Positions 692 through 24,808 of a stretch of DNA of 35,628 nucleotides are shown one piece after another. The DNA is from Sphingomonas sp. 32-66-10. GTDB taxonomy: Bacteria; Pseudomonadota; Alphaproteobacteria; Sphingomonadales; Sphingomonadaceae. Both the position numbers and the translations under genes were made by a program. A model generated the notes under the pieces. That model was given only the letters and a program-made list of their open reading frames with translations. It was not told the DNA's origin and searched no databases. Numbering within the stretch: the first letter of the stretch is position 1; each line of letters begins with the position of its first letter. Location: NCBI GenBank assembly GCA_002280565.1, contig NCEF01000018.1:1-35628 (forward strand), in the 5' to 3' direction.

Positions 692-1519
692 TCAGCGCAC
701 GCAGGCGTCCAGACCGTCGCGCTGGACAACGCCGATACGCGCCGCGATCGAATTGCCATAGCGGCGGGTAAAGCCCTTGGGGGCGGTGGCTGCGCGCTTC
801 TTGGGCAACGGCAGCACGGCGGCGATCCGCGCCGCCTCGGCGCGGGTCAGGTTGCCTGCGCCCTTCTTGAAATAGCGTCGCGCACCCGCTTCGGCGCCAT
901 AGGTGCCGATGCCGGTCTCGGCGACGTTGAGGTACACTTCCATGATCCGCCGCTTGCCCCAGATCGTCTCGATCAGGACGGTGAACCACGCCTCCAGCGC
1001 TTTGCGGAAATAGCCGCCGCCCTGCCACAGGAACACATTCTTCGCCGTCTGCTGGCTGATCGTCGATCCTCCGCGCAGCACCTTTCCACCCTGGGCGTTG
1101 CGCAGCATTGCTGCCGCGATGGAATCATAGTCGAACCCGGAATGGGAGCAGAAGCTGCTGTCCTCCGCTGCGATTGCGGCGCGCGCCATGTCGGCGTCGA
1201 TGCGCGAGAGCGGCACCCATTTCTTGGTCACGCCATGGCCGGTGAAAATGTCGCCCATCATCGTCAGCGTGAAGGGCGGGGGGACAAAGCGGTAGAGCGT
1301 GACCATCCCCACCGACACCAGCACGAACGCCAGCGCACCCTTGAACAGCCAGCCGAGGATGCGGCGGCCGATCGGTTTGCGGGGTTTGGCGGGCTTCACG
1401 GGCTGAATGCCGATTCCGTCGAGATGGCCAAGGTCGGGTAGCGGGCGCGGGCCGAGCGGCGGGCCCGGGCGCGGCGCACCCGGCGCCGATCCGCCCGTTC
1501 CAGTCGTGTCCTGTGGCAC
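692..1519 (-). CDS. mtgA: Monofunctional biosynthetic peptidoglycan transglycosylase
   Basis: Polymerises lipid II into glycan strands at the periplasmic face of the inner membrane (glycosyltransferase family 51, without a transpeptidase domain). A proline-rich cytoplasmic N-terminus of about 50 residues precedes one membrane helix (about 54-76). The GT51 motifs are all present: AAEDSSFCSHSGFD with catalytic Glu119, GGSTISQQTAKN, and KRRIMEVYLNVAE. The length, 275 residues, is slightly above the usual 230-250 because of the long N-terminus. The start is GTG with GGGGAG just upstream; the spacing is short, so a small error in start is possible. It follows rpoH by 19 nt on the same strand and probably shares its transcript. 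Confidence 0.92.
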   Translation of the reverse strand: MPQDTTGTGGSAPGAPRPGPPLGPRPLPDLGHLDGIGIQPVKPAKPRKPIGRRILGWLFKGALAFVLVSVGMVTLYRFVPPPFTLTMMGDIFTGHGVTKKWVPLSRIDADMARAAIAAEDSSFCSHSGFDYDSIAAAMLRNAQGGKVLRGGSTISQQTAKNVFLWQGGGYFRKALEAWFTVLIETIWGKRRIMEVYLNVAETGIGTYGAEAGARRYFKKGAGNLTRAEAARIAAVLPLPKKRAATAPKGFTRRYGNSIAARIGVVQRDGLDACVR

Positions 1520-1538: not shown

Positions 1539-2307
1539 TCAGCCGACGGTCAGCAACCGGCGGTCGCCCGCCAGGCGCATCATCGCCTTTTGCAGCTTTT
1601 CGAACGCACGCACCTCGATCTGGCGGACGCGCTCGCGGCTGACGCCATAGACCTGCGAAAGCTCTTCCAGCGTCTTGGGATCGTCGGTCAGCCGGCGTTC
1701 GGTCAGGATGTGCTGCTCACGCTCGTTGAGCTCGTCCATCGCCTCGATCAGCATGGAGTGGCGGACGTCCGCCTCCTGCGCTTCGGCGACGACCTCGTCC
1801 TGCAGGGCGCTGTCGTCCTGCAGCCAATCCTGCCACTGGCTCTCGCCATCCTCCCGCATCGGCACGTTGAGCGACGTGTCGCCGCCCATCGCCATGCGGC
1901 GGTTCATCGACGTGACCTCTTCTTCGGTCACACCGAGATCGGTGGCGATCTTCGCCAGATCCTCGGGCTTGAGGTCGCCATCCTCGAACGCATCGAGCTT
2001 GGCCTTCATCCGGCGCAGGTTGAAGAACAGCTTCTTCTGCGCGGCGGTGGTGCCCATCTTCACGAGGCTCCACGAACGCAGGATGAATTCCTGGATCGAG
2101 GCGCGGATCCACCACATCGCATAGGTGGCGAGGCGGAAGCCGCGATCGGGCTCGAACTTCTTCACGCCCTGCATCAGGCCGATATTGCCTTCGGAAATGC
2201 TCGGGCGCGAGGATCGGAAACTTCTTGATCTCCGCCAGATAGCGGTTGAGGCTAGCCTCACCACCTAGGGCTGGGATCGTCGCCGGGACGTTGCTTCCGC
2301 GGGCCAT
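1539..2307 (-). pseudogene. rpoH: Heat-shock sigma factor RpoH, disrupted by internal deletion and frameshift
   Basis: RpoH directs RNA polymerase to heat-shock promoters. The first 36 codons, from an ATG at 2307 with AAGGGAG 9 nt upstream, give MARGSNVPATIPALGGEASL and then NRYLAEIKKFPILAPE, a normal RpoH N-terminus. At about 2198-2200 the sequence jumps straight to ISEGNIGLMQGVKKFEPDRG in a different frame. From there to the stop at 1539 all later RpoH motifs are intact (RLATYAMWWIRASIQEFILRSWSLVK, the RpoH box region QKKLFFNLRR, region 4 GVSRERVRQIEVRAFEKLQK). Compared with the family (about 290-300 residues), some 45 codons are missing, including the AHKLVTSHLRLVAKIAMGYRGYGLP part of region 2.1. 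The loss is not a multiple of three. As written, no full-length sigma factor is made; the first frame runs on to about 1717. This may be a real lesion, or an assembly or sequencing artefact. Confidence 0.85.
2247..2260. repeat. 14-nt perfect palindrome in the rpoH N-terminal codons
   Basis: TGAGGCTAGCCTCA is its own reverse complement. It contains the rare tetranucleotide CTAG, and a second CTAG (CCTAGG, 2264-2269) lies 3 nt away. In rpoH mRNA it could form a 5-bp stem with a CUAG loop about 15-20 codons after the start. Function unknown. Confidence 0.6.
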
Positions 2308-2389: not shown

Positions 2390-3337
2390 TTATACGATGA
2401 GCTTATCCATCAGTTCCTGCATGTCCGCAGGCATTTCGCTATCGAACGCCAAAGCGTTACTACTGATAGGATGGATGAACCCCAGCCGGGCGGCATGCAA
2501 GGCCTGACGGCGGAAACCCATGGTTTCCAATACCTCCCGATGTTCTTTTTTCGTTCTGCCATAAACCGGGTCGCCGATCAACGGGTGACCGAGCGACGCC
2601 ATGTGCACGCGCACCTGGTGCGTGCGGCCGGTTTCGAGCCGGCATTCGACCAATGCTGCCTCATAAAGCGGCTTCAGCAGCGTCCAGTGGGTGACCGCGC
2701 GCTTGCCACCCGGCTGGATGGCAATCTTTTTGCGGTTTTGCGGCGAGCGCGCAAGCGGCGCATCGACGCTTCCGCCTGACGTTTTCGGTCGGCCGGAGAC
2801 GATCGCCTGGTAGCGGCGGTCGATCGAGTGATCCTTGAACTGGCGGGCCAGGCCGACATGCGCGCGGTCGGTCTTGGCCGCGACCATCAGGCCGGACGTA
2901 TCCTTGTCGATGCGATGCACGATGCCGGGGCGCGCGACTCCGCCGATGCCCGACAGGCTGCCCTGGCAATGGTGGAGCAGCGCGTTGACGAGCGTGCCGT
3001 CGAAATTGCCCGCGGCGGGGTGGACGACGAGGCCCGCCTGCTTGTCGATGACGATCAGATGTTCATCCTCGAACACCACGTTGAGCGCGATCTCCTGCGC
3101 TTCGTTATGCGCGGGTTCGGGTTCGGGGACGATCAGCGTAAACGTCGCGCCGCCGGGCGCCTTTTTCTTGGGATCGCGGATCAGGCCATCGGGGCCGGTG
3201 ACATTGCCGGTGGAGATCAGCGCCTTGATCCGCTCACGCGACAGCGTGGGGAGCGCATCCGCCAAAGCCCGGTCGAGCCGCCAGCCAGCTGCTGCATCCG
3301 CGATCCGCGCTTCGAGTGTGGCTACCCCCCGGTTCAT
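2390..3337 (-). CDS. rluD: Ribosomal large subunit pseudouridine synthase D
   Basis: Converts uridines 1911, 1915 and 1917 (E. coli numbering) of helix 69 in 23S rRNA to pseudouridine. The 315-residue protein has an S4-like RNA-binding domain (about 15-75, LDRALADALPTLSRERIKALI) and a RluA-type catalytic domain. The hallmark HRIDKDTSGLMV carries catalytic Asp144, and LETGRTHQVRVHMASLGHPL is the conserved C-terminal catalytic motif. It lies 82 nt upstream of rpoH on the same strand. Its start is only 12 nt from the divergent M67 peptidase start, so the two promoters must overlap. RluA, RluC and RluD are similar; length and motifs fit RluD best. Confidence 0.9.
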   Translation of the reverse strand: MNRGVATLEARIADAAAGWRLDRALADALPTLSRERIKALISTGNVTGPDGLIRDPKKKAPGGATFTLIVPEPEPAHNEAQEIALNVVFEDEHLIVIDKQAGLVVHPAAGNFDGTLVNALLHHCQGSLSGIGGVARPGIVHRIDKDTSGLMVAAKTDRAHVGLARQFKDHSIDRRYQAIVSGRPKTSGGSVDAPLARSPQNRKKIAIQPGGKRAVTHWTLLKPLYEAALVECRLETGRTHQVRVHMASLGHPLIGDPVYGRTKKEHREVLETMGFRRQALHAARLGFIHPISSNALAFDSEMPADMQELMDKLIV

Positions 3338-5038: not shown

Positions 5039-6313
5039 TCAATCCCCCTTCGGTCCCAGATAGTCCGCGCCATACACCGCCTTGCGGATATCGGTGTGGA
5101 GCGTGCCGTCGAACGGGAAGGTCTGGACGAAGAACACCACCGCCATATTGTTGGCGGGATCGACCCAGAACAGCGTGCTCGCCGCGCCGTCCCAGAAGAA
5201 TTCGCCGACCGCGCCGCGGTTGCGGTCTGGGGTCGCGGGGCGGGCGGTGCGGACGGCGAAGTTGACGCCGAAGCCGCCGTCGATCTTGCCCATCAGCCAC
5301 TCGCGTTCCTTGATCGCGGGGTCGAGGTGATCGGTCGCCATCAGGCGGATCGTCGCGGGCTTGAGCAGGCGCGCACCGTCCAGTTCGCCGCCGTTCAGCA
5401 GCATCCGGGCAAAGCGCATATAATCGTCGATCGGCGCGACGATCCCGGCGCCGCCCATCGTCAGCGGCACGCCGGGGAAGTTGCGCTCACGCATCGCCGC
5501 ATCGGGCTGGCGGGCCATGCCGGTCGGGCCCTTCACATAGGTCGCGGCGAAGCGCGGGAGGCGATCCATCGGCTGGTGCCAGCCGGCCTCGCGCATCTTC
5601 AGCGGATCGAAGATGTGCTGCTGGACATAGTCGGTGAACTTCATGCCGCTCAGCCGCTCGACCAGCAGCGCCTGGACATCGACCGACACGCTGTAATGCC
5701 ATTCGGTGCCGGGTTCGGAGAGCAACGGCACCTTGGCGAGGCGGCGACCGAACTCCGCAAGCGTATTCTGCGGGTTGAGCGGATCGGCGGCGGCGAACGC
5801 CTTGTGCGCTGCGGTCGGGCCGTCGCCATAGGCGAAGCCGGCGGTGTGGCGCAGCACGTCGCGGATCGTGATCGGACGGCTCGCGGCGCGCCACAGCGGC
5901 TTGCCATCGGGGCCGGTGCCGTCCTGAACCTGCATATTCGCGAAATCGGGGAGATAGCGCGCGAGCGGATCGTCGAGGCGGAACTTGCCCTGCTCCCACA
6001 GCTGCATGAGGGCGACGCCCGTCACCGGCTTGGTCATCGAATAAATCTGCACCAGCGTGTCGCGGGCGAAGGGGCGGGCGGCCTCACGATCGGCGACGCC
6101 GCGCGCGGCGAAATGCACCTCGCGCCCGTCCTTCCACACCAGCACCGACCCGCCGACCGCGCGACCATCGGCGATCATCTTGGCCAGCATCGCGTCGATC
6201 CGCTTGGTGTCGAGCTTCACCGCGTCGGCAGGCGCTGCGCGGGTCTGGGCGAGCGCGGGGGCCGCCGTCGTGGTGAGTGCAAGTGCCGTCAACGCTGTCA
6301 TCCAATGCCACAT
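5039..6313 (-). CDS. Secreted serine hydrolase, beta-lactamase/esterase (class C-like) family
   Basis: A 424-residue protein with a cleavable signal peptide (hydrophobic 5-20, AAPALAQ cleavage context). The family nucleophile motif is SMTK (Ser92, Lys95). The tyrosine motif is YSV (Tyr207) rather than the YxN of true class C beta-lactamases, as is common in family VIII esterases. The C-terminal FFWDGAASTLFWVDP occupies the position of the third (KTG-like) box. A periplasmic esterase or peptidase is more likely than antibiotic resistance. GGGAG lies 7 nt before the ATG at 6313. The gap to divergent chpT is about 100 nt. Confidence 0.85.
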   Translation of the reverse strand: MWHWMTALTALALTTTAAPALAQTRAAPADAVKLDTKRIDAMLAKMIADGRAVGGSVLVWKDGREVHFAARGVADREAARPFARDTLVQIYSMTKPVTGVALMQLWEQGKFRLDDPLARYLPDFANMQVQDGTGPDGKPLWRAASRPITIRDVLRHTAGFAYGDGPTAAHKAFAAADPLNPQNTLAEFGRRLAKVPLLSEPGTEWHYSVSVDVQALLVERLSGMKFTDYVQQHIFDPLKMREAGWHQPMDRLPRFAATYVKGPTGMARQPDAAMRERNFPGVPLTMGGAGIVAPIDDYMRFARMLLNGGELDGARLLKPATIRLMATDHLDPAIKEREWLMGKIDGGFGVNFAVRTARPATPDRNRGAVGEFFWDGAASTLFWVDPANNMAVVFFVQTFPFDGTLHTDIRKAVYGADYLGPKGD

Positions 6314-6415
6314 CCAGAGTCTCCCAATCGATTTGCCGCGGACGCTAGCGGCGAATGGCCCGCTTGCGAAGAGGGTGCGCTTGCAGCGGCGGCGCGGCTG
6401 GGCCAAAGGGGAGCC

Positions 6416-24662: not shown

Positions 24663-24808
24663 GTGAGTCTGATCCCGCCCCCGGAAACCGATCGCATGCT
24701 ATCGGGCATTGGTTAACGCTTCAACGCCGCCGACCACGTATTTGCCGCAGCGCAGCGTTCATTCGTCGCAATGCAGCGGAACAAAGTTGAAAGTTGGTTC
24801 AGGTTCGC

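Follow-up and report, generated by a model that had tools for sequence, protein, structure and literature searches.

A 137-bp gap in rpoH of a Sphingomonas draft genome and its very probable origin in assembly or library preparation

The rpoH gene carried by the window, the whole stretch of 35,628 nucleotides of Sphingomonas sp. 32-66-10 that was analysed here, lacks 137 bp that its relatives possess, and this gap is very probably an artefact of the assembly or of the sequencing library of the draft genome and not a biological lesion. The reading in which the assembly dropped these bases is favoured because blunt deletions recur across unrelated housekeeping genes elsewhere in this assembly, the frame-breaking ones being unseen in the related genome G228. 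The first-pass annotation of this DNA had left three explanations side by side, namely a second RpoH, a recent lesion, and a loss of bases during assembly; the last is the best supported by the present comparison, a recent lesion is disfavoured, and the second RpoH is not supported.

The Lesion in rpoH

The gene lies on the minus strand at 2307-1539, with the ATG at 2307-2305 and the TGA at 1541-1539. Its 5' part (2199..2307, minus strand) comprises the start codon and the first 36 codons, plus 1 nt, in the normal frame, while the 3' part (1539..2198, minus strand) holds what remains of region 2, continues through region 4, and ends with the stop codon, all in a frame that differs from that of the start. 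The two parts meet at a deletion junction at 2198..2199 (minus strand), placed with a 1-nt ambiguity, where the 137 bp of the relatives are absent. The gene is covered by two open reading frames, both on the minus strand, of 241 aa (1539-2264) and 198 aa (1717-2313).

The size of the loss was obtained from the spacing between two conserved anchors, measured in the window and in 13 loci of the same genus. The interval measures 52 bp in the window against 189 bp in 12 of the 13 loci, L045 having yielded no match to the anchors; therefore, 137 bp are absent from rpoH. In blastn comparisons the break falls at the identical base against all four of the relatives G228, G239, G262, and G261. The loss affects 46 codons, of which 45 are missing entirely, the other 2 nt belonging to one more, and 137 leaves a remainder of 2 on division by three. 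The first-pass annotation had described a normal RpoH N-terminus joined to another frame near 2198-2200 and had put the loss at about 45 codons or 130-137 nt; the break found at 2199/2198 and the loss of 45 whole codons plus 2 nt bear out both statements, and the alignment with rpoH of relatives that it had proposed returns the same 137-bp loss against genomes of the genus. The junction is clean sequence whose flanks both match the relatives, and no N letters were found in the stretches of this genome that were checked. The DNA identity of rpoH to its relatives is 95% for G228 and 94% for G239, values that belong to comparisons between species.

The order of the genes around rpoH is the same in G228, G239, G262, and G261 (blastn), and the neighbouring proteins were compared with those of G228. 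The genes labelled rluD (2390..3337, minus strand) and mtgA (692..1519, minus strand) by the first-pass annotation are intact, as it had stated: the former has 95% protein identity over residues 1-315 of 315, and the latter 96% over residues 9-275 of 275.

Some other differences in length occur along the window. The space between mtgA and rpoH (1462-1539) holds about 1.29 kb of additional sequence in G262 and G261, which is not found in G228 and G239. At 24770-24782, outside called genes, the window is without about 795 bp that G228 and G239 share; a 193-aa open reading frame of G228 within this segment has no match in the window. At 6300-6377 G228 is longer by about 781 bp, and G239, G262, and G261 are without the extra sequence, which looks like an insertion in G228.

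Remaining Parts of the RpoH Protein

Pfam profiles recognise regions 1.2, 2, and 4 in the intact copy of G228. In the 241-aa open reading frame of the window, they match region 4 and positions 27-69 of the Sigma70_r2 profile; the first 26 positions of the latter remain unmatched, in agreement with the partial loss of sigma region 2 already noticed at first pass, and no match to Sigma70_r1_2 was obtained in this frame. The loss thus reaches part of region 1.2 too, which that description did not mention. Region 4 is complete (Sigma70_r4, profile positions 1-50 of 50, 70.1 bits).

The RpoH equivalog model TIGR02392 has a curated cut-off of 323.1 bits, which the intact RpoH of G228 exceeds with 365 bits and the window gene misses, scoring 262.7 bits in the genome search and 264 as the 241-aa open reading frame. 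With the sigma-32 subfamily model NF005143, whose cut-off is 241, the same 241-aa frame passes at 287.8 bits. The window gene is recognised as that for RpoH (sigma-32) by its neighbours, by the rest of region 2, by region 4, and by a DNA identity of up to 95% to its relatives, and departs from it in the 137-bp loss, in the broken frame, and in the missing part of region 1.2 and beginning of region 2. Its assignment to the alphaproteobacterial rpoH1 group is taken from PMC4843759 and not from a tree.

Similar Deletions in Other Genes of the Assembly

The contigs of this genome that were sampled amount to 600,312 bases, i.e., 22% of the assembly, and the references were stretches of G228 (about 10 contigs; 100% complete) and of G239 (one contig). 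Genes were called in each genome and aligned to the other genomes, with a threshold of at least 40 bp for a deletion. Among 355 genes of G228 placed in the genome under study, 11 carry such a deletion, and in eight of these the frame is broken. Besides rpoH (137 bp against G228 and G239 alike), the eight include leuA, which lacks 74 bp (76 against G239) together with its likely start, a BaeS-like sensor kinase (155 bp against both references), an M28 peptidase (109 bp net; 106 against G239), and an RDD protein (44 bp; net 44 against G239), whereas proB (139 bp), ksgA (79 bp), and rarD (100 bp) were compared with G228 as the reference. Since five of the eight lesions (rpoH, the kinase, the peptidase, leuA, and the RDD protein) recur against G239, they are losses in this assembly and not insertions in G228; the G239 stretches do not reach ksgA, rarD, and proB, and for these three genes an insertion in G228 would also account for the difference.

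In the matched reverse control, where genes of the present assembly were placed in G228, none of 359 is frame-broken and two have in-frame deletions. Further controls gave frame-breaking deletions in 0 of 296 genes of G239 placed in G228, 0 of 221 genes of this assembly placed in G239, and 1 of 293 genes of G228 placed in G239. The one-sided Fisher test yields p = 0.0036 for 8/355 against the matched reverse control and p = 5.8e-5 against the four controls pooled, although the pooled controls overlap in their genes and so lack independence. When the lesion is restricted to 25-90% of the gene length, four of the eight are kept against none in G228.

A second sample of 10 genes overlapping G228 contained two deletions, of 69 and of 138 bp, lengths divisible by 3, for which G228 is the sole reference, so that an insertion in that genome could equally explain them. 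The 69 bp are gone in frame from dnaE (L262, contig C72, at about 3093), with 1-nt homology at the junction; the lost segment is conserved and aligns with Escherichia coli Pol III alpha of solved structures, and it is hard to believe that a replicative polymerase would be functional without it. The ten gene deletions, these two and the eight frame-breaking ones, span 44-155 bp.

The eight do not comprise the in-frame differences of at least 40 bp, namely one of 114 bp, a segment that G239 lacks as well, one of 51 bp, and a third, of 45 bp net, that lies upstream of an MFS domain. Likewise uncounted is a difference of 58 bp at C43:6614. It was seen against G239 and, when the search started from the gene of this assembly, as an insertion in G228, but the run from G228 to this genome gave no single deletion of at least 40 bp there. 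Gaps of about 100 bp in intergenic DNA, seen between the genomes, were also excluded from the lesion count.

Two repeat families of about 80 bp (L093:4262-4342) and about 135 bp (L096:19018-19153) were encountered in G228 on both strands and in many places; they look palindromic and dispersed, and their size is similar to that of the intergenic gaps.

Junctions, Codon Constraint, and Error Signatures

Microhomology is limited to 0-1 nt at all of the 11 junctions inspected, which are those of the eight frame-breaking deletions, of the 69- and 138-bp deletions, and of the one upstream of the MFS domain; recombination between repeats is consequently unlikely. Apart from that of rpoH, junctions were placed at C43:85258, C43:44229, C43:40014, C61:97382, C80:107499, C41:46890, C41:17570, and C72:3093. 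For rpoH itself, a repeat-mediated deletion was considered and rejected on the 1 nt of microhomology at its junction.

The eight frame-broken genes do not stand apart in their codon constraint, their dN/dS values against G228 lying between the 3rd and the 83rd percentile of 343 intact genes; in particular, rpoH has a dN/dS of 0.026, at the 3rd percentile of this set. Frameshifts of 1-2 bp (within 25-90% of the gene length) are found in 4 of 355 genes of this genome and 6 of 359 in the control, and genes with nonsense codons only number 5 and 10, respectively, so that neither class is elevated. Natural gene decay would be expected to raise both small frameshifts and nonsense genes; a natural pseudogene was rejected on the lack of an excess of small frameshifts and stops and on an omega in the normal range. 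The approach does detect signatures of error, as seen from the load of small indels in conserved genes of the single-contig genome G239, where 293 genes carry 24 insertions and 10 deletions of one or two bases, which look like uncorrected sequencing error.

A different irregularity concerns rpoD, which is split between the tail of contig C42 and the head of contig C43 (L075/L076) even though it is covered: the two ends overlap by 195 bp inside the gene with 6 mismatches, as in the assembly of mixed strains.

RpoH in the Genome, the Genus, and the Order

The assembly has 2.68 Mb in 83 contigs, is 83.33% complete and 0.97% contaminated, and is probably a metagenome bin. A search of this genome for RpoH returned four matches, which are the damaged rpoH, the two pieces of rpoD (C42 and C43), and one weak sigma-like protein; no second rpoH was found in the assembly. 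The missing 137-bp stretch, taken from G228 as a query run without a positive control, found no match in the genome either. As to the same deletion in other genomes, among the matches listed that of every other genome begins at query position 118-138, at or near the junction. A 42-base pattern beside the rpoH junction gave no match in the contig scan, but it does not span the junction and has no bearing on the deletion.

In the genus, RpoH exceeds the family cut-off in 289 of 295 genomes, and the genome of the window, included in this count, is one of the six below it. The other five are heterogeneous: in G180 the gene is divided between two contigs, in G251 it forms two adjoining pieces on a single contig with a broken frame, in G199 it is truncated by the contig end, and no piece of rpoH is recognisable in G007 and G225. 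Two RpoH matches at E <= 1e-60 appear in only one of the 295 genomes, G255, which consists of 400 contigs with 6% contamination. In the survey PMC4843759, rpoH1 alone is described for the Sphingomonadales examined; this finding does not extend to the whole order, since seven genomes from other families (G025, G026, G028, G032, G034, G038, and G040) have a second RpoH-like protein with 265-283 bits.

Alternative Explanations

A real and very recent deletion, produced for example by blunt end joining, may have inactivated the only rpoH of cells that survive at moderate temperature without a heat-shock sigma factor, and this is the least improbable of the alternatives, albeit unlikely. It would account for the clean junction with flanks matching the relatives, and end joining also yields junctions with 0-1 nt of homology, such as those observed here. 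The absence from the assembly of a DnaK above the family cut-off in the model search points the same way: the sole match to the DnaK model is a 566-aa Hsp70 relative below the cut-off, at L251:1270-2970 (contig C29). Against this, DnaK may sit in the unassembled part of a genome that is 83% complete. Tolerance of the loss has a precedent in Caulobacter, where PMC5760092 describes a DnaKJ depletion strain that, supplied with DnaKJ, formed colonies without rpoH at 15-30 °C and none at 37 °C, and where reduced sigma-32 activity, including its complete loss at low temperature, suppresses the loss of DnaKJ. By analogy with these suppressors, a free-living Sphingomonas lineage could have truly lost its only heat-shock sigma factor and perhaps DnaK as well, which is very improbable; should it prove true, the lack of RpoH in a free-living alphaproteobacterium would come as a surprise. 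Against a real deletion stands that seven other genes are frame-broken in the same manner and dnaE has an in-frame loss, that all eight frame-broken genes look constrained, and that it is improbable for a single lineage to have acquired so many lesions very recently with no additional small frameshifts.

Two further explanations accept the lesion as real and scarcely deserve credence. A second RpoH could make it tolerable, given that seven genomes of other families in the order have one and that part of the present genome is unassembled; yet none occurs in the assembly, two strong matches seem confined to G255 within the genus, the survey cited above reports rpoH1 alone in the Sphingomonadales that it covers, and the gaps in the other genes would stay unexplained. 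It is just as hard to credit that the gene works as a sigma factor of 241 aa devoid of regions 1.2 and 2.1. An open reading frame that starts from an internal GTG at 2264 does keep the 3' frame and passes the sigma-32 subfamily model, but the product falls below the RpoH equivalog cut-off, has no match to region 1.2 and none to positions 1-26 of the region 2 model, its first 22 residues are shifted-frame sequence, and such a form is not seen in the relatives listed in the anchor comparison.

Probable Assembly or Library Artefact and Its Implications

An artefact of the assembly or of the library remains the preferred reading of the 137-bp gap. The gap would be one of a set of blunt losses scattered across the assembly, of 44-155 bp in the cases seen, in which two flanks that did not truly overlap were presumably joined, perhaps where a stretch was weakly covered or variable between strains. 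The missing bases would be present in the cell, whose rpoH is most likely of the usual, undamaged form and functions like that of the relatives. A k-mer assembler does not typically fail by making blunt joins that lack an overlap, and this is the weak point of the artefact reading; in addition, the number of events is small (8 against 0).

That errors of assembly can create false pseudogenes is documented (Cooley and Wright 2024, PMC11017572). In that work, as in the genome described here, conserved genes seem broken and the rate is unequal between assemblies; its abstract concerns frameshifts and internal stops, whereas the present ones are blunt deletions of 44-155 bp, with small frameshifts not raised.

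In practical terms, when a core gene seems to be lost from a draft genome, the loss needs to be weighed against the rate at which similar lesions occur in that assembly. Here, a rate of 8 per 385 kb of gene sequence would correspond, if 90% of the genome is assumed to be coding, to about 50 frame-breaking gaps genome-wide, and gaps in such number would distort the lists of lost functions drawn from this Sphingomonas genome.
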